A DNA stretch of 43,325 nucleotides, taken from the IMG/VR virus record IMGVR_UViG_3300025151_000080, positions 1 to 43,325 of that record, one strand, 5' to 3'. The translations under genes and the position numbers were made by a program. Source of the stretch: a virus. Shown here piece by piece: positions 26,195-38,956 of this stretch. Position 1 is the stretch's first letter, and every line of letters begins with the position of its first letter. Under the pieces are notes generated by a model. That model was not told the DNA's origin, did not search any database, and worked only from the letters and a program-made list of their open reading frames with translations.

Positions 26195-28840
26195 TTAGAT
26201 TGCTGAGATTATGAATGCTAGAAGTTCTGAGTAACGCACGCCCAGGCGAGTGTGCTCTTCCCCGGTTTCTTCATCAGTCGATGTGTTTGAAGTAAACATT
26301 GCATAGCGTCCAGCGTCTAAACCCTCAGCCTCAAATGCTGCTTGTAGATCTTGCGCAATGATTCCGAAATGAATTCGGGCATCGTCGCCTTTCTCCGCTA
26401 CTGATGACTTCATGCGGTACTTACGAAGCAAGCCTTTGCAAGCGACCGCAACACGTTGCTCTGCATCAGACAGCACTTCAATGTCCTGCTTTAAATTTCT
26501 GTCAGAAGGGTTAACAGTGCCATACGTGTAAACATCATCGAACGCCTTGCTAGATGACCCCAAGTCCTGCGAATTGTTTGCGCCGGGAAGAATATTTCCA
26601 CTCGAATCAATACGCATCCGCTCAGATCCACCATTGAAAAACGTCATCGCATTAGCGGAAAAAAGATAGTTAATCTGGCCTACGTCATTGTCGGAATCAC
26701 TAGAAAAATAAACTGAACTTGTCGCGGAGGAGTTTCCAGCAATGGTCAGCACAACACCCGATCCCGCAGCCGTTCCGCCGGGGTGTATAAACGCCGCTGT
26801 ACCTGCATGGGGAGCCGCGCCAGACCAACTAGCGCCGAGGCGTGAGACAGTGAGCCTGTCTGCAGGATCATCATCACCAAGCCCAAGGTTGCCGGAGCTA
26901 TTGAGCACAAGCAAAGCCCTGCTTACGTCCGCTGTAGAATCCGCATGTGCCGAAGTAGCTTGGCGTGTGACAGCGAACGAATCTATTTTGTTGTAGGGAC
27001 GGCCAACGAAATACTCTACGTCATCGTCCTGATTATGCAGAAACATGCCCTCACCACGAGCAGATCCATTTGCATCCATAATCAGGCGGCTGTGCGTAAA
27101 GCCGGTACCACCATCGTTGCCTATGTGGATGGTGGAATCTACGTCGAGGTTGTAGGCGGGCGAAGTGACGCCTATGCCCATATTTCCAGAGCTATCAATG
27201 TATACGCGCTCTGAGTCATTTGTACGAAAAGACATTTTGTTAGTAGAATGGTGATACCTAATACGCCCTGCATCTGCGTCACCACTATCTCCGAACATTA
27301 AATAAGACGAAGCAGATGTACCCCCAATAGTAATACGCATAAACGCATCATCAGAATCTCCAGTGCCGGTGCTTTTTACTTGTATGGAGGGGTCTGTAGC
27401 TGCCTGTACATCAAGTTCGAAGCCGGGGCTTGAGGTATTTATTCCCAAGCGGCCAGTGTCACGGAACCTCGCTATTTCGGTACCATCTATCTCGAACTCA
27501 ATGGAGGAACTAGAAGACCCGTCATCATTCGGGTCCGCAATAAGCCGAAGGTTGCCATTGGCGGTATTTTGAACTTGTGCAATACCTGCGCCAGATCCAT
27601 CGCTGTCTTCAAGACGAATCGTGGGGTTGCTGTCTTTAATGTGCAAGGGGTTGCTTGGAGAAGTAGTGCCAATTCCTACGCGATCTGCGGACGCATCGAC
27701 AAAAAGCGTGTCTGTATCAACGGCGAGATCATCTGCGACCGTCAGCGTAGAAGCCATATCTACGGCACCGTCAATGTCTACAACATCAAGGTTTGTAGTG
27801 CCGTCTACATCAATATCTCCAGATATATCCAAGTTTGTAAAAACAGACGTTCCGACTGCTGTGATTTTATCGTTGAACGTAGCAGCACCAGCAGCGGACA
27901 TGTCAAACTGAAGCGCGTTAATTGTAGAACCGCCGTCGTTACCACGGATGTAGATGTCTCCGTCGCTGATGACTGCGTTTATATAGAGGTCATTGCCTGA
28001 CTTGGTGACATCTCCAAAATGCGTTCCGCCGCTTTTGAAGAGAATGCTGTCGCCGCCAGCGTCAAGATTGATGTCTGCTGCCACATCCAGAGTTAAATCA
28101 CCCGAACTCAAAGCAATCGTAGTGCCGTCAATATTGATGTTATCGATGTCAATACCGGCGTCTGCGGTGATCTTTCCTGCGGACACGGTAGTGCCCGAGA
28201 TATCTACATTTCCGTTGATGTCGATAGTCGTAGCGGCAATCTGAACCTCTGTATCCGCGACAATATCAAGCTGACCATCTGTGCTCGAATTAATATAGAT
28301 CGCACTGTCACGAAGCTGCACCTTGTCAGTCGTCGTCAACTCGATGTTTGTACCGCTGGATGTGTTGCCTGCAGTCAATACTTCAGCCAGCGTATCCGTC
28401 ACACCAGGATCAACCAGCGCCATCGCGTCAACAACAGCAGCACCAGAGCCTGCACCATCGAGGTAAACAACAGCGGTTTTGCCGGTAGCGATTGTGACGT
28501 TAGCCCCACTGCCCTGGCTGATGTTGATTGACTGAGAGCCGGTGGTAGCGTTCTCAATAAACATCACCCGAGAGATGGTATTCGGAGCGATGGTCAAAGT
28601 CCTGGTTGCGCTCAATGTCGCAGAAGAAGTGACCTTGAAGTACATAGCTCGCGCAGGGTCAGTAGATCCGTCTGCCACCGTGGTCGTTGCATCTGCGTCC
28701 GAACTAAAACAATCCTGAGTACCGTACCCTAGAGCTTCACCAATCAGCTCCAAATTGGTGTTCGTGCTCGTGCCCCAGGTTCCGCTCTCTTCGCCGGTTC
28801 CGATTTCTTTCAAGCGCAGATCATTTACATACGTTGCCAT
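26195..28840 (-). CDS. Tail fibre with self-cleaving S74 chaperone domain
   Basis: 881 residues. The N-terminus (NDLRLKEIGTGEESGTWGTSTNTNLE) is the usual attachment end of marine phage fibres. The long middle is beta-helical, Thr/Asp/Gly/Ser-rich, with repeating DIDG and DSSGNMGIG-type units. The last 100 residues start PSDRNLKQDIEVL and include FGIIAQDLQAAFE: the Peptidase_S74 intramolecular chaperone, whose Ser and Lys in SDRNLK form the cleavage dyad. The chaperone trimerises the fibre and then cuts itself off. This is the best receptor-binding candidate in the window. Confidence 0.85.
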   Translation of the reverse strand: MATYVNDLRLKEIGTGEESGTWGTSTNTNLELIGEALGYGTQDCFSSDADATTTVADGSTDPARAMYFKVTSSATLSATRTLTIAPNTISRVMFIENATTGSQSINISQGSGANVTIATGKTAVVYLDGAGSGAAVVDAMALVDPGVTDTLAEVLTAGNTSSGTNIELTTTDKVQLRDSAIYINSSTDGQLDIVADTEVQIAATTIDINGNVDISGTTVSAGKITADAGIDIDNINIDGTTIALSSGDLTLDVAADINLDAGGDSILFKSGGTHFGDVTKSGNDLYINAVISDGDIYIRGNDGGSTINALQFDMSAAGAATFNDKITAVGTSVFTNLDISGDIDVDGTTNLDVVDIDGAVDMASTLTVADDLAVDTDTLFVDASADRVGIGTTSPSNPLHIKDSNPTIRLEDSDGSGAGIAQVQNTANGNLRLIADPNDDGSSSSSIEFEIDGTEIARFRDTGRLGINTSSPGFELDVQAATDPSIQVKSTGTGDSDDAFMRITIGGTSASSYLMFGDSGDADAGRIRYHHSTNKMSFRTNDSERVYIDSSGNMGIGVTSPAYNLDVDSTIHIGNDGGTGFTHSRLIMDANGSARGEGMFLHNQDDDVEYFVGRPYNKIDSFAVTRQATSAHADSTADVSRALLVLNSSGNLGLGDDDPADRLTVSRLGASWSGAAPHAGTAAFIHPGGTAAGSGVVLTIAGNSSATSSVYFSSDSDNDVGQINYLFSANAMTFFNGGSERMRIDSSGNILPGANNSQDLGSSSKAFDDVYTYGTVNPSDRNLKQDIEVLSDAEQRVAVACKGLLRKYRMKSSVAEKGDDARIHFGIIAQDLQAAFEAEGLDAGRYAMFTSNTSTDEETGEEHTRLGVRYSELLAFIISAI

Positions 28841-28852
28841 CTATTCCACCTT

Positions 28853-30889
28853 TCAAGCCGCATCGCGGCCAGCTTTAATTTCTTCGTATCCTGCCGATTG
28901 GCTGGTGTCCACCGCTACATAACCCGCCGATTGCGAGGTGCTTATGTCTCCATAACCAGGGGATTGACTGGTGTCTATTGCCGCATAACCCGCCGATTGC
29001 GAAGTGTCTACCGGATTGTACGAGGGGACTTGGTCGGTGTCTATCTCGCCCCAAACGAGAATCTCACCAACGCTTGCCGTTGTAGAGAGGCCAACCAGCG
29101 ATACAACTGCACCTGAAACAGTGGTTGCATCACCAATCGCTGAGTTTATCTGTTGGCCGCCTACTGAAACTCTAGTCGCTGCCTGAACGGAGGGCGTGCC
29201 TAAGCCAGACGAAATAGCTTGCCCGGTGGGGGTAACGCTTACGTCCTGATCAACTGCCGGGGCGCCGACAGCAGATATGATCGCCTGGCCTGTAGTCTGA
29301 ACAATCGACGCTGCGACGGTTTGAATCGACCCCACGCCTGATGTAACAGATTGGCCGGCCAAAGTTACATTCGACTCTCCATCGACGGATAAAGCGCCTA
29401 GCCCCGACGTGACGGATTGCCCCGTCAGCGTGATGGTCGCGTCGTTGGATACCGTGACCGCGCCCACGCCAGAAGTGATTGCTTGGCCCGAGACTGAAAC
29501 ATCAACTTCTAGGTTGACTGAGGGCGCGCCGACAGCAGAAGTAATTGCCTGGCCCGTGGGCGTGAGGCTGGATTGACCGGTGACGGTTAGACTTGTACTA
29601 ACGGCTGAATTTATTGCCAGTCCGGTAAGGCTCGCGGTAGCCCCCGACGCGACGGTTGGTGAGCCTAACCCAGAAGATATAGACTGACCCGTCAATGTGA
29701 GATTGGCCTCGGCATCAACCGTCAAAGCGCCAACGCTTGCGGCAATCTGCTGCCCCGCAGGCGAAACATCGACCTCTTCATCAACTGTCAGCGAGCCAAC
29801 GCCAGCGGTAATTGCTTGGCCAGTAAGCTGCACGACAGTGCCAAGATCAACCTGTAGAGAGCCGACAGAAGAAGTAATTGCCTGGCCCGTGGGCGTGATA
29901 TTAGCTTCTGCATCAACCGTCAAAGCCCCAGAAGCGCTACTTACCGATTGCCCCGTAAGGGAGACGTTTGCCTCCGCATCAACCGCCAAAGAACCCAAAG
30001 CGGAACTTATCGATTGCCCTGCAACCGAGGCGTTTGCCTCCGCATCAACCGATAGAGCTGCAACTGCTGAGGTTAAAGCTTGTCCGGCGAGAGTGACGCT
30101 TGCCTCTCCATCGACCGAAACAGATCCAATCGCAGAACTGATCGACTGACCTGTTAGCTGGATCAGTGACCCTGCAACTACTTGAATAGAGCCGACGCCA
30201 GAGTTAATAGCTTGGCCGGTTGGAGTAACGCTTACTGACGCACCTGCAGATACAGCGCCAACAGCGGAGGTGATTGCTTGGCCGGTCGGAGTGACATTTG
30301 ACTCTGCGTCGGGGGTTACTGAGCCTACGGCGCTCGTTACGCCCTGACCAGCAATTGAAACATTTGCCGCTGCATCAACTGATACAGATCCAGCGCCAGA
30401 GGTAACTGCTTGACCAGCAATAGCAACATTTGCCGCTGCGTCGACTGATACAGAACCAACGCCAGAAGTTATTGCCTGGCCGGCAAGAGTGACGTTGACC
30501 CCTGCATCAACTGTTGCAGCGCCAACACCAGAAGTAACGGCTTGACCAGCAGGAGTGACATTGACTCCTGCATCGACTGTGACAGCACCAACACCCGAGG
30601 TTATTGCCTGGCCGGAAACCCCAACGACCGTGCCTGCGTCTACGCTAAGCGAGCCTACCTGCGCTGTAGCTTGTTGTCCGCTAGGCGTGACATTGGCCAC
30701 GCCAGTATTGGAAACACTGCCGACGGATGCTGACGCAGCCTGACCTCCAGGCGTGGCATTTGCCTCTGCATCGACTGTGACAGCGCCAACACCTGAGGTT
30801 ATTGCCTGCCCAGTGACATCGACGGGGAGTGGAGTGCTCCATGCACCTTCACCCCAGCCGCCACGGCCCCAGCCGTTAATGTTAGCCAT
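28853..30889 (-). CDS. Repeat-built virion protein (27 x 22 residues, then 11-residue repeats)
   Basis: 678 residues. N-terminal INGWGRGGWGEGAWS, then 27 tandem units of about 22 residues with consensus (V/I)TxxGQAITSxVGxxxVDAEAN, then four exact-register 11-residue units of the type DTSQSAGYAAI (plus one degenerate unit), and a short tail. The regular hydrophobic spacing suggests a beta-solenoid or stacked beta hairpins. The repeat length halves at the C-terminus. It sits directly upstream of the fibre gene, so it may extend or decorate it, or contact glycans. Not a recognised family beyond the GWGRGGWGEGAW start. Confidence 0.75.
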   Translation of the reverse strand: MANINGWGRGGWGEGAWSTPLPVDVTGQAITSGVGAVTVDAEANATPGGQAASASVGSVSNTGVANVTPSGQQATAQVGSLSVDAGTVVGVSGQAITSGVGAVTVDAGVNVTPAGQAVTSGVGAATVDAGVNVTLAGQAITSGVGSVSVDAAANVAIAGQAVTSGAGSVSVDAAANVSIAGQGVTSAVGSVTPDAESNVTPTGQAITSAVGAVSAGASVSVTPTGQAINSGVGSIQVVAGSLIQLTGQSISSAIGSVSVDGEASVTLAGQALTSAVAALSVDAEANASVAGQSISSALGSLAVDAEANVSLTGQSVSSASGALTVDAEANITPTGQAITSSVGSLQVDLGTVVQLTGQAITAGVGSLTVDEEVDVSPAGQQIAASVGALTVDAEANLTLTGQSISSGLGSPTVASGATASLTGLAINSAVSTSLTVTGQSSLTPTGQAITSAVGAPSVNLEVDVSVSGQAITSGVGAVTVSNDATITLTGQSVTSGLGALSVDGESNVTLAGQSVTSGVGSIQTVAASIVQTTGQAIISAVGAPAVDQDVSVTPTGQAISSGLGTPSVQAATRVSVGGQQINSAIGDATTVSGAVVSLVGLSTTASVGEILVWGEIDTDQVPSYNPVDTSQSAGYAAIDTSQSPGYGDISTSQSAGYVAVDTSQSAGYEEIKAGRDAA
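29039..30817 (-). repeat. 27-unit array coding for 22-residue repeats (about 66 bases each)
   Basis: About 66-base direct repeats encode the 22-residue units of the protein at 28853-30889; copies share GQ-ITS, VG and VDAEAN positions but differ by many silent and coding changes, so the array is old or diverging rather than freshly copied. A separate 33-base-type array follows at about 28890-29005 for the 11-residue units. Confidence 0.8.
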
Positions 30890-31028
30890 CTTCTAGTTTA
30901 GATTCGGCGTCTTTGAGAAGGCCAACTGCCGTAGTCAAAATGTCTCGCACAGCGTCTGTCATAAAGTCGGTCTGAAGAGAGGCTTCCATTTTGCTGATTG
31001 CCTCTTGGATATCTTCGATTGCAGTCAT
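30882..31028 (-). CDS. Very small helical protein upstream of the repeat protein
   Basis: 48 residues: MTAIEDIQEAISKMEASLQ, then TDFMTDAVRDILTTAVGLL and KDAESKLEDG. Entirely helical. GGAG lies eight bases before the ATG at 31028, and its stop overlaps the repeat-protein start by eight bases (ATGGCTAA), strongly suggesting translation and coupling. Function unknown. Confidence 0.65.
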   Translation of the reverse strand: MTAIEDIQEAISKMEASLQTDFMTDAVRDILTTAVGLLKDAESKLEDG

Positions 31029-31060: not shown

Positions 31061-31852
31061 CTATGCTGCGTTAGGAACACCCTGAAATTTGCGGTTCAAG
31101 ATGCGCTGCACCTTGGAGTGCGTGAGCGGAGGTATGTTGTGCATGCTGTTGACCTGCTTGGCTATCTTTCGCGGGCCAAGGCCGCGCTTATGCAGCTTGT
31201 AGATCGTCTTCAATACCACCTGCTCTTCAGGCACCTCTACCAACTTCTTGCGCGTCTTGCTGCCCGTCTTCACCTCTTCGTGCCTGAATCCATACGGTGC
31301 AGATCCGCCGATTGCGTAACCGCGTGAGGCCCAATCGAGCTTACCTGCGGCAAATCGATCCTTAATGGTGGCGTGCTCTATCTCGGCAACCGCAGATAGC
31401 ACCATCAGCATGATCTGGTTGGCCATCGAGTTCATATCGAACTTGGCGTCCAAACCCTTCGACCTGCCTGCGTCTGGGTAGACAATCGGCATCTCACCAA
31501 ACTGCTCACAAAAGTACAGCGTGATACCGATTTCCTGCAAAACGGGTATCAGGCCCAACAGGTCAGAGCTGGAACGACTCAACCGATCAAGCCGTGTGCA
31601 GATCACCACGTCATGGCGGTCAATCACGTCAGTCATATCGCGGCTGGCGGGTCGATCTAGCACCGCATGGGTGCCAGAGATGCCCTCATCCGCAAAGAAC
31701 TCGGTCACCTCACGGTTGTACTTTTCACGCACAAACTCACTGATCTGCTGCTTCTGAGTGTCTAGCGAGATGCCAGACTTGACCTGCTCGTCTGTGGATA
31801 CGCGGACGTAGCCGTAGATGTTGTTGATTTGCTTCAGTGGGTTGCCGCTCAT
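31061..31852 (-). CDS. Serine recombinase (medium length)
   Basis: 263 residues. The resolvase/invertase catalytic domain is intact: YVRVSTDEQ with nucleophile Ser19, and TRLDRLSRSSSDL. Then a partial recombinase domain (AIGGSAPYGF, VPEEQVVLKTIYKLHKRGLGPRKIAKQ, THSKVQRILNRKF). It lacks the zinc ribbon and coiled coil of large serine integrases. It could act as a DNA invertase or resolvase for the neighbouring fibre genes, or integrate the genome. No inverted repeat flanking a fibre segment was seen. ATGA overlap with the upstream gene. Confidence 0.85.
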   Translation of the reverse strand: MSGNPLKQINNIYGYVRVSTDEQVKSGISLDTQKQQISEFVREKYNREVTEFFADEGISGTHAVLDRPASRDMTDVIDRHDVVICTRLDRLSRSSSDLLGLIPVLQEIGITLYFCEQFGEMPIVYPDAGRSKGLDAKFDMNSMANQIMLMVLSAVAEIEHATIKDRFAAGKLDWASRGYAIGGSAPYGFRHEEVKTGSKTRKKLVEVPEEQVVLKTIYKLHKRGLGPRKIAKQVNSMHNIPPLTHSKVQRILNRKFQGVPNAA

Positions 31853-33112: not shown

Positions 33113-33302
33113 GTATTTCGAAACTCTTGATCTGGCGCAGTTCAGGATGATGCACGACGTGAACTCAGAAAAAGCAACGAAGCTTTTTAAGCATGTGCTC
33201 GACTCTCAACATGACGTAGGCGCGGAATCCGACTACATCATCCGGTTGTGGAAGCAGGAGAGAGGAATCAAATCGGCTGAATCGCCTCAACTACCGGCCT
33301 AG
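33105..33302 (+). CDS. Small unknown protein, plus-strand trio gene 3
   Basis: 65 residues from the ATG at 33105 with GGAG eight bases upstream (a longer frame from 33045 lies wholly inside the previous gene). Helical: LAQFRMMHDVNSEKATKLFKHVLDSQHD. Its last 35 bases overlap the 3' end of the convergent polyvalent-protein gene, a tail-to-tail arrangement without a visible terminator. Confidence 0.65.
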   Translation: MDKYFETLDLAQFRMMHDVNSEKATKLFKHVLDSQHDVGAESDYIIRLWKQERGIKSAESPQLPA

Positions 33303-36048
33303 CCGCTTCTCTACGCACTTCTTCCATTTCTGGCGTATCGCGTGGATCGAGTGACAAAATCCCAAGCGCGGCATCTGTCACCGCTTCACCGGCTGGCACC
33401 AATAATTTTTGAAATCCAAACTGCACGGGATCGAGAGACTGCGTGTCGTCCATCAAGTATTCGCCAATCGATCCAATGCCTGACTTGAGCGCTTCTTTGT
33501 ACCGGCGACCTGTAGGCGTTTGCGTCTCGAAGTCTACCAACGCGGACGCTCTTGCACGCGCAGCTTCTGCTTGCTCCGGGGTCAAGCCTCGTTCAAATGC
33601 GTACTCAGCTCCCGCCATGCCCAAAAGCGGCTCAATCAACAAATCCGAAAGCGCCTCATATCCAACTTCGCCCGCGCCATAAAGCGCATCGGTCAAGGAG
33701 TCAATGCCGCCTTTTGCCTTCGGCACATTTGCAGTCTGCAGCCCGCGATCAAGCTCCATCGAATAACGCGCCTGTTCTGCCGCTTTCTCCGGGGTCAAGC
33801 CCTGTAGCCCCGCAATGCCTTGGGGAAGAACCAAAGGCAGTGGCGCAAATCCAAACATCGTGGTCGGGTCTTTCATCTTCTCCGCGATGCTTTCGCCGTC
33901 CCTCGTTAGGTTGTCTAGGTGGTAAATCTTAGACTCGTAACCATCCACTTCCATCGTTTCCGGGCGGTTAGAGGGTATTACGGGAAGTTTGCCCAAGACC
34001 TTATCGATGGCCCTCGGTATGTTTTGCTCGTACTGAACGCGCAAACCTTCATCGCCCCATCGATCAACGTGCGCGTCTGCGGGCGCAAAGCTTACGCCGT
34101 CATAGCCCTCTTCAGCGGCCTTTTTGAAGATATATTTGATGGCCAGCTTGTTCCAAGACTGGGTATCTAAGACGAATGGCCCCTCCTTTGGGTTGCCTCT
34201 TTGCATTCGTTCAGCTTCGAGTTTAGCGCTCTCGGGGTCAGCCTTATCCAGTGCAGATTTCAGTTTCGAGAGAAGCATCGGGTCCACGCCCATACCCGCT
34301 AAATATTTGCGCTGCTCCTCCTTTGCTTGCGACAGAGCGGCCTCAAATTTCGGGTTAGTACCGTCGAATACGGGCACTGCTCCAGAGGGTGGCAATTCGC
34401 CAAGCTCGACCGCACGTTTAAGCACCTGCTCATAAGCGCGATTTATATTTGCTTCAAAATCTCTCCGCAAACCCCTCCTCATATTTTGAATGTACTCTTC
34501 CTCTTCCAAAGGAGAAAAATCCCTGAGTATGCGGCTCAATATGTCTCCTTCTCCCTCAATGGCGATATCCGCAGCCATCTCCATTATTCCATCGCGCCCG
34601 CGCTCTCTCTCCAACTTGTCGAGGTAATCCTCCTCAAGCAAGCTATTTGCCGCCTTTTTTGCTTGTGCGTCAGCGCGTTGCAGGGCAGTTTTGATATTCC
34701 CAGCAGCGTCCAAGGAGAAGGTGCGCTGAAACTCTGTTTTCTCGGCAGTGTCAAGATCGCTATCTGATAAATTTATTCGAGCAAGTCGATCTTGCTTTCC
34801 AGCCTGTAAAAGCTCTGTCAAACTAGCCTGTAAACCTTTCTCCCCAGTCAGTCTGTCACTAACATTCGGGTTCACGGTCAATTCGTCGAGAAGCGGGCCT
34901 ACCTCCTCTAACAGTTGCATCGCGGCCTCTTGCGCCTGTTTCTCAACCTCTGGGTTTTTAAACCCTTGCTTACGGCCTTGCTGCGCCCAGTCAGACTGGA
35001 CCTCTTCCACGTACAAGATATTTTCGCCCATCGGCCCTTCGCGGTCTTTGGTGCGAACGTGAAAGACGTTGTTGATGTCATCAGGGAAGTGAATGCCCTC
35101 TCTAAACTTCTCCCTGCCTTTGCTGGGCAGTGAAAGTCGCGCTTCCTGGTAGTTTTCGCCACCATCTAGGGTGTATTCGCCCCATCGTGTCTCGCCCTGA
35201 GCAAGTCCCTCTACATCGCCGTATTCTTCCGCAATACCTCGAAGCCGAACGATTACTTCGTCTGGGTCATAAATGCCTGCCCTCTCGATTTCTCGAACGA
35301 TATTTCCTGGGACGTTATCTCTTTCCAGTCCATCTAGGCCAAAGCCCATGTTTTCATTACCCACAAGCGAATAACTGAAAGCAGCGCCGGGCATGTCACC
35401 TATGTTTTGTATCTCATTGTTTTGATCGGTGACTTGAACTGTGATCCTGCGAACTGGGTCTTCGTCATAGTCTCGATAGACAAATTCTCTCGCCCTGTCC
35501 TGCAAGTCAAAAACGATTTCGTCTGGCAAGGCGCTTAAAGCCTCGCCTCCGTTAACAACTTTCTCCATACGAGCTATAAGCTCTTCAAACTCGTCTTGAT
35601 CGTCGGAATATCTTCTTGCGTAGCTCTCGATATTCTCTCTATCTAAAAAGACATTTTTTAATAAAATTATATCATCAAGACGCTCCTCCACCTCATACTC
35701 GACGTGGCTGGGGCCATAACTTTCTTCAATATCCAGAATTTCGTTGTCGTATCCATAGTCATAGGAACCATATGATGGTCCCGTACTGACCGTTTCTTCC
35801 ATTTCAATTCGGTCTGAATCGATACGGTCTAAAATTTCTCTTTGAGTTACCCTTTCTTGACGAAATAAATCGTTCAAGCCAAGGGCTTCCAGCTCTTCAG
35901 CTTTTACCCCCTGCTTTAAAAAATATCGCTTTACGTCATCACCGCGACCCTTCTTTTGAGGCATTTTTTCAGCGACATCTTCAGCCAGGCTGTACATGTT
36001 GAGCTTGTTGATCTGCGCCTTAATGATTCCTCTTTTTATAATTCCCAT
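33268..36048 (-). CDS. Large polyvalent-type protein (probably injected or virion-associated)
   Basis: 926 residues. Residues 24-88 carry the small module GVKAEELEALGLNDLF with a following VTQREILDRI. This pairing, with the later FHVRTKDREG and LYVEEVQSDWAQQGRKQGF (about 340-360) and FVLDTQSWNKLAIKYIFKKAAEEGYDGVSF (about 625-650), is the set seen in giant phage and plasmid polyvalent proteins such as DarB-like ones. Much of the rest is acidic and coiled. No nuclease or kinase active site can be named. Likely injected with the DNA to protect it or modify the host. Its neighbour is an ADP-ribosyltransferase-like gene, a known polyvalent companion. Confidence 0.7.
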   Translation of the reverse strand: MGIIKRGIIKAQINKLNMYSLAEDVAEKMPQKKGRGDDVKRYFLKQGVKAEELEALGLNDLFRQERVTQREILDRIDSDRIEMEETVSTGPSYGSYDYGYDNEILDIEESYGPSHVEYEVEERLDDIILLKNVFLDRENIESYARRYSDDQDEFEELIARMEKVVNGGEALSALPDEIVFDLQDRAREFVYRDYDEDPVRRITVQVTDQNNEIQNIGDMPGAAFSYSLVGNENMGFGLDGLERDNVPGNIVREIERAGIYDPDEVIVRLRGIAEEYGDVEGLAQGETRWGEYTLDGGENYQEARLSLPSKGREKFREGIHFPDDINNVFHVRTKDREGPMGENILYVEEVQSDWAQQGRKQGFKNPEVEKQAQEAAMQLLEEVGPLLDELTVNPNVSDRLTGEKGLQASLTELLQAGKQDRLARINLSDSDLDTAEKTEFQRTFSLDAAGNIKTALQRADAQAKKAANSLLEEDYLDKLERERGRDGIMEMAADIAIEGEGDILSRILRDFSPLEEEEYIQNMRRGLRRDFEANINRAYEQVLKRAVELGELPPSGAVPVFDGTNPKFEAALSQAKEEQRKYLAGMGVDPMLLSKLKSALDKADPESAKLEAERMQRGNPKEGPFVLDTQSWNKLAIKYIFKKAAEEGYDGVSFAPADAHVDRWGDEGLRVQYEQNIPRAIDKVLGKLPVIPSNRPETMEVDGYESKIYHLDNLTRDGESIAEKMKDPTTMFGFAPLPLVLPQGIAGLQGLTPEKAAEQARYSMELDRGLQTANVPKAKGGIDSLTDALYGAGEVGYEALSDLLIEPLLGMAGAEYAFERGLTPEQAEAARARASALVDFETQTPTGRRYKEALKSGIGSIGEYLMDDTQSLDPVQFGFQKLLVPAGEAVTDAALGILSLDPRDTPEMEEVRREAARPVVEAIQPI

Positions 36049-37894: not shown

Positions 37895-38956
37895 TTAGAA
37901 AAAGTACCCGCCAGATCCGGGCAGCGAGCCAATCCCGCCGTACATCATCTGAGCACGCGGTGAGTAACCACCGCCAAATCCTCCGAAGCCACCGCCGAAG
38001 CGAGGAGGCATCGGCTGACCATAACCGCCACCCATGCCGTAGGGTGACGGGGGAGCAAATCCACCGCCAAAGCCTCCACCGAAGCCTCCGCCAAAGCGAG
38101 GTGGCTGGGGCATAGGTTGGGGTTGGCGTATCTGAGCTTGATGGCCGTAAAATCCGCCATATCCACCGCCATATCCACCACCATATCCTCCGCCAAAGCG
38201 GGGTGGCTGGGGCTGAGGCATGGGCTGAGGCATGGGCTGAGACATGGGCTGGTCTTTTGGCATCGGCATCGGCTCTTTAATCCTTTCCCTCGGTGGAGGG
38301 CGGCGCGATCCCGGTCGTATTAAATCCTCCATGTTGATGCCCTCGCCCGGAGGAAGAGCTGGCCCCCGTCTATACTTAGGCTGCGGCGGCTGATATCGCT
38401 CCGGCGGAAGGGGAGCTGGCCCCCAGGTCAGGGGTGGTGGTGGCGGCGGCGGCATAAATATTGACGTTGGCGGATCGGACGGAAAGATTGGAGAAGGACG
38501 CCCAGGCGGACGGGGATCGGGAATTTCATACCGCTCCCTTCTTTCGTCCGGCGCTGGCATTTCATACCGCCCCATGCTTTCGTCCGGCGCTGGCATGTCA
38601 GGAAGCGGACCCTTCCCCAATGGGTCAATGATTGGCGGGTTGCCTGGACCCTTGTAATTTACGCCACCCGGTCCCGGCAATACGCCACGAGGGCGCTCAG
38701 AAACCGCTCGTGGCCCGGTAGGGTTAAGCGGACCACCGACACCTCGATTTGCAGCCGCTTCCCTCATTCCGCTCATGCTAAAACCCGGATTAGGGGAAAA
38801 AGAAACCGCCGGCCTGGAAACCGCCAGCCTGGGTCGGGGGGAGTAAGGAATCGCCGGCCTGGCTTGATAAAATTGGCCTCGACCAAACGTCTGGGACGGA
38901 CGAAACAATGCTGCGCGAGAGTTTCGGAATGGCGAAAAGTATTGCGAAGGTATCAT
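37895..38956 (-). CDS. Proline/glycine-rich low-complexity protein
   Basis: 353 residues. A Pro/Arg/Ser-rich N-terminal half (PSPRPRLAVSRP style) contains a doubled MPAPDE-RYE unit and a PPPPPPP run; the C-terminal half alternates PMPQP linkers with FGGGFGGGF and GYGGGYGGGY blocks. Almost no secondary structure is expected. Glycine-rich blocks resemble those of phage adhesins (T4-like gp38) or adhesive or phase-separating proteins, but no true match is claimed. Own promoter candidate upstream at 38985-39013. Repeats also make this gene prone to in-frame length change. Confidence 0.7.
   Translation of the reverse strand: MIPSQYFSPFRNSRAALFRPSQTFGRGQFYQARPAIPYSPRPRLAVSRPAVSFSPNPGFSMSGMREAAANRGVGGPLNPTGPRAVSERPRGVLPGPGGVNYKGPGNPPIIDPLGKGPLPDMPAPDESMGRYEMPAPDERRERYEIPDPRPPGRPSPIFPSDPPTSIFMPPPPPPPLTWGPAPLPPERYQPPQPKYRRGPALPPGEGINMEDLIRPGSRRPPPRERIKEPMPMPKDQPMSQPMPQPMPQPQPPRFGGGYGGGYGGGYGGFYGHQAQIRQPQPMPQPPRFGGGFGGGFGGGFAPPSPYGMGGGYGQPMPPRFGGGFGGFGGGYSPRAQMMYGGIGSLPGSGGYFF

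Follow-up and report, generated by a model that had tools for sequence, protein, structure and literature searches.

A tandem 22-residue repeat protein encoded beside a tail-fibre gene in aquatic phages, a probable length-variable module of the fibre apparatus

Introduction

Repeat-built fibre shafts, such as the triple β-spiral and phage long tail fibres, consist of tandem short β repeats whose number sets the length of the shaft. The triple β-spiral is a trimer of intertwined hairpins with repeats of about 15 residues. Here we describe a viral protein that resembles these shafts in its tandem organization but has a period of 22 residues and an array without any sequence match to them. It is encoded in a virus record of 43,325 bases, called hereafter the window.

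Arrays of the same kind are present in the cultured Pelagibacter phages HTVC027P and HTVC023P, in phage 023Pt_psg01 and in the metagenome-assembled lake phage DSL-LC04 (PMC10611076). In all these named records the array proteins are annotated as hypothetical, and our literature search found no paper describing the array. The gp68 proteins of HTVC027P (QGZ17849.1) and HTVC023P (QGZ17697.1) have homologous or similar 22-residue-type units and keep the same fibre-domain gene next to them, annotated as a putative tail protein. However, both are shorter than the window's protein; HTVC027P gp68 also differs by several Trp blocks and the lack of clear 11-residue units, and HTVC023P gp68 by its N-terminus. 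The protein WJZ48131 of DSL-LC04 shares with the window the Trp/Gly blocks, the 22-residue units, the C-terminal 11-residue units and the adjacent fibre-domain gene, but it has several Trp blocks throughout the array and units of the VTGVQATG type.

Anatomy of the repeat protein and its surroundings

The repeat gene is a minus-strand ORF encoding 678 residues. Its parts and nearest neighbours in the window are the following:

28853..30889, minus strand: whole repeat gene, 678 aa, an ORF whose homologues match from first to last residue
30815..30889, minus strand: N-terminal Trp/Gly block MANINGWGRGGWGEGAWSTPLPVDV, residues 1-25, the best-conserved part among close relatives
29042..30814, minus strand: 27 units of 22 residues, residues 26-616, one of 23 residues and the last partial
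28877..29041, minus strand: five units of 11 residues, residues 617-671, the first degenerate and four clear
28856..28876, minus strand: C-terminal cap KAGRDAA, residues 672-678, kept in many relatives
26195..28840, minus strand: partner tail-fibre gene, downstream, with GTGEESGTWGTSTNTNLELI N-terminal domain and C-terminal S74 chaperone
30882..31028, minus strand: 48-aa ORF (MTAIEDIQEAISKMEASLQTDFMTDAVRDILTTAV...), overlapping the start of the array gene by 8 bases
31061..31852, minus strand: serine recombinase, upstream, a frequent but not universal neighbour

The repeat anatomy was established directly. In an autocorrelation of residues 21-620, the self-identity of the protein was 0.45 at a lag of 22, against a maximum of 0.17 in 500 shuffles over lags 1-89, and a position weight matrix placed 27 unit starts at residues 26, 48 ... 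599. The spacing is exactly 22 along the array, with the exception of one 23-residue unit at 422, and the last 22-mer gives way to the 11-mers after only about 18 residues (599-616). The latter read, in order, DTDQVPSYNPV (degenerate), DTSQSAGYAAI, DTSQSPGYGDI, STSQSAGYVAV and DTSQSAGYEEI. The count given by the original prediction, 27 tandem 22-residue units and then four or five 11-residue units, was therefore right; its description of the whole protein as built from repeats holds for both arrays, but not for the 25 N-terminal residues, which lie outside them. At the DNA level, TRF detected a 66-base period only in parts of the array and a 33-base period at 28918-29010, so that the repeat is kept mainly at the protein level.

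Downstream of the array, on the same strand, lie the S74 fibre gene, which starts MATYVNDLRLKEIGTGEESGTWGTSTNTNLELI, a DUF7936 gene, and genes for spanins, endolysin, large terminase, portal and a Mu gpT-like capsid protein. On the upstream side, a small ORF similar to the 48-aa one was present in 40 of the 144 loci tested, loci with a Trp-block start, and its product is a candidate co-translated helper. A serine recombinase motif occurred in 63 of 145 upstream regions. We considered an invertible segment around the recombinase and rejected it: the inverted repeats of the 24.5-33 kb region are short and imperfect, none resembling an inversion site. Farther upstream, the window encodes on the minus strand a 926-aa protein (33268-36048) that matches nothing in Pfam and only weakly a PHROGs endolysin (E 5.5e-6), and a 353-aa Pro- and Gly-rich low-complexity protein (37895-38956) with PMPQP and FGGGYGG repeats and no match in Pfam or PHROGs.

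A widespread family without a name

Searches of environmental viral contigs with three queries retrieved 280, at least 575 and 115 stretches encoding relatives of the repeat protein. By sequence homology, it thus represents a real and widespread family with several hundred environmental relatives. From 1840 units we derived the 22-mer consensus T-G-[VQ]-x-[AGI]-T-[GS]-x-[LVI]-G-[ST]-V-x-V-x-A-x-A-N-V-x-[VPL], in which V and A alternate at positions 12-22. We defined the family here by at least six tandem 22-residue units of this consensus together with an SGTWG-type fibre gene next to them; the window's gene has 27 such units and the fibre gene at 26195-28840 (minus strand) is of this type. 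Because fibre bodies, too, contain 3-7 scattered matches to the unit matrix, a small number of units by itself lacks specificity. Among 178 distinct relatives with a complete C-terminus, the number of 22-mers ranged from 6 to 32 and that of 11-mers from 0 to 5. Some members carry a GFxPFA-kind N-terminus in place of the Trp block.

Profile searches matched the repeat protein to no Pfam or NCBIfam family. PHROGs gave only weak partial matches to function-unknown families (E 9e-4 and 5e-3), and none for the relatives, while the top sequence match in the PDB, an aciniform spidroin, was not significant (E 0.045). PF12815 (Spt5 CTD), matched in 7 of 21 members, was discarded as a chance likeness to QTP-rich 11-mers. 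Hence the original prediction, which could name no family of this form, is supported for Pfam, NCBIfam and PHROGs, and the homologues of the protein did not lead by sequence to any known fibre family.

Variation in unit number

Copy-number variation between related genomes, proposed as a check in the original prediction, was found among near-identical relatives for either array. Contig pairs sharing about 94-98.6% identity upstream show length differences of 66, 132, 198 or 264 bases, which correspond to whole units, as read from metagenome assemblies, where repeats can be mis-assembled. Alignments showed four 22-mers gained or lost near the N-terminus in one pair of loci (L203/L206), a difference of three 22-mers together with a changed N-terminus in another (L002/L136), and differences of two 11-mers each in L034/L047 and L126/L152. 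Other pairs show differences that are not multiples of a unit, some of them from subfamilies with uneven unit length or inserted Trp blocks.

When the window is compared with L001, the units align in order and their identity rises from about 0.3-0.5 on the N-terminal side to about 0.7-0.8 on the C-terminal side. The closest unit pairs inside the window's own array are units 1/4/5 and 6/7. Growth of the 22-mer array thus seems to take place towards its N-terminal end. We detected no positive relation between the numbers of 22-mers and 11-mers, and the unit number does not increase with fibre length (rho -0.21).

Linkage to one type of fibre gene

The placement of the array beside a fibre gene, foreseen from the window, was borne out across the family. 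An HMM search found a fibre gene with the SGTWG N-terminal domain downstream of the array in all 152 loci with at least 450 bases of downstream sequence. It was immediately next to the array in 118 of these loci, and a single short gene separated the two in most of the remaining 34. In the reverse direction, an array lay upstream of the SGTWG-domain fibre in 71 of 74 usable loci, or in 61 if at least six units were required; this sample came from the 80 loci nearest to the window's fibre, so the linkage is overstated for distant groups. On the other side of the array, many relatives encode phrog_644 plus a phrog_2941 adaptor-like virion protein, or a tail-fibre assembly protein. As a separate observation, in one subgroup the array and the fibre are separated by a conserved gene of about 76 aa whose product contains CxxC pairs and is zinc-ribbon-like (L175, 3959-4189; L174, 4691-4921; L203, 7260-7490; and similar loci).

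The fibre domain also occurs without the array, in the Roseobacter phages CRP-901 and CRP-902, in Pag-Yong1 and in L315. The gene order in CRP-901 and CRP-902 is adaptor-like protein, phrog_644-like protein and fibre, and L315 has a phrog_644-like gene followed by the fibre. In relatives with the phrog_644 arrangement, the array sits between phrog_644 and fibre. The array is, therefore, an optional cassette at a fixed place that is not needed to attach that fibre, and its optional presence suggests that it modifies reach or binding instead.

One-fibre-type linkage, adaptor and fibre-assembly neighbours, β repeats (see below) and length variation all fit a structural role, and we consider it probable that the protein is an optional, length-variable, β-rich module that serves the tail-fibre apparatus as a shaft or spacer. 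Several features count against this role: the fibre domain occurs without the array, the number of units does not grow with fibre length, and some members have Trp blocks inside their arrays, so that these blocks are not solely an N-terminal anchor. The protein might alternatively form a virion appendage distinct from the tail fibre, for instance a fibre on the head or neck or a surface adhesin binding sugars via its 11-mers or Trp blocks, its gene merely lying beside that of the fibre. The fibre of CRP-901/902 and Pag-Yong1, which works without an array, the Trp/Tyr-rich motifs at both ends of the repeat protein and the fast change in 11-mer number would all agree with this. However, the linkage to a single fibre N-terminal domain is near-complete in both directions whereas the other neighbours vary, which makes such an appendage unlikely.

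Fold of the array

The array could instead be a flexible low-complexity linker devoid of regular fold, its length variation being tolerated slippage. Ala, Val, Ser, Gly and Thr indeed make up about 71% of the array, and an AlphaFold2 model of a short homologue reached a pLDDT of only 48, falling to about 33 in the 11-mer region. Nevertheless, hydrophobic residues recur with the period of β strands (z 6.5-7.3 at 160-180 degrees), and in the charge/hydropathy plot the composition lies with ordered proteins. Likewise, the strict 22-residue spacing is maintained across 27 units and the same positions are kept across the 1840 units of the family (G2 in 88%, T6 in 81%, G10 in 96%, and V14 and V20). 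We regard a flexible linker as rather improbable, and a β-rich array as supported.

The type of β structure is less clear. The short homologue was modelled with two strands per unit. Seven units of the window, modelled from an in-register 60-row alignment, gave instead a solenoid with three strands per 22 residues (pLDDT 64, pTM 0.53) that resembles the coil of right-handed β-helices such as family 3 pectate lyase and phage tailspikes, with about 22 residues per turn. Both models are of low confidence and their topologies disagree. AlphaFold2 is known to invent solenoids for repeat sequences (PMC11795689), and for that reason we take only "β-rich" as supported. The long regular rod of the original prediction is thus no more than plausible: the β periodicity and the ordered composition would agree with it, but the models differ in topology. 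The structure prediction it had called for recovered β strands in both models, but no common topology and no significant Foldseek match.

Taken at face value, the solenoid would make the array a monomeric right-handed parallel β-helix similar to pectate lyases or tailspikes, which might act as an enzyme or as a stalk that binds sugars. VIA-align placed a family 3 pectate lyase on top (Z 14.4, 150 residues, 3.0 Å), but also many unrelated solenoids; sequence similarity was no more than about 11%, no catalytic site was identified, and Foldseek returned nothing below E 0.3 in the PDB and no significant match in BFVD. With a model of moderate confidence from a suspect class, and two strands per unit in the other one, we find this fold quite improbable; it is, in any case, mainly a statement about fold and compatible with a shaft or spacer. 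Curlin repeats are similar in length to the 22-mers. A curli-like amyloid subunit is nonetheless very improbable, despite the curli genes reported in related HTVC023P-type pelagiphages (PMC9599517), because this record contains no Curlin_rpt (PF07012) at E 10 and no CsgG (PF03783) at E 1 in searches that detected their controls.

Proposed role and significance

As a shaft or spacer, the repeat protein would act together with the product of the adjacent fibre gene, and the 22-mer array would fix the length of the module. Most gain and loss of units seems to take place towards the N-terminus, and the C-terminal 11-mers change in number separately. The conserved ends, namely the N-terminal Trp/Gly or GFxPFA block and the C-terminal units, 11-mers and cap, may serve as docking or capping parts. 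On this view the protein would be part of the virion, rod-shaped, attached by one of its ends and in direct contact with the fibre. A more specific version is possible, and we put it forward tentatively: an insertable repeat cassette that tunes the reach of the host-attachment apparatus in a widespread aquatic phage family, with 22-mers on one side setting length and 11-mers at the other end setting valency.

The array gene, frequent among contigs of aquatic phages, is still without a family name, and its place is in the genome region that determines host binding. Cultured phages for comparison exist both with the array (HTVC027P and HTVC023P) and without it (CRP-901 and CRP-902). If the proposed role is true, unit number would be a fast-changing control of length beside one fixed fibre type, a simple and testable way for these phages to adjust adsorption.
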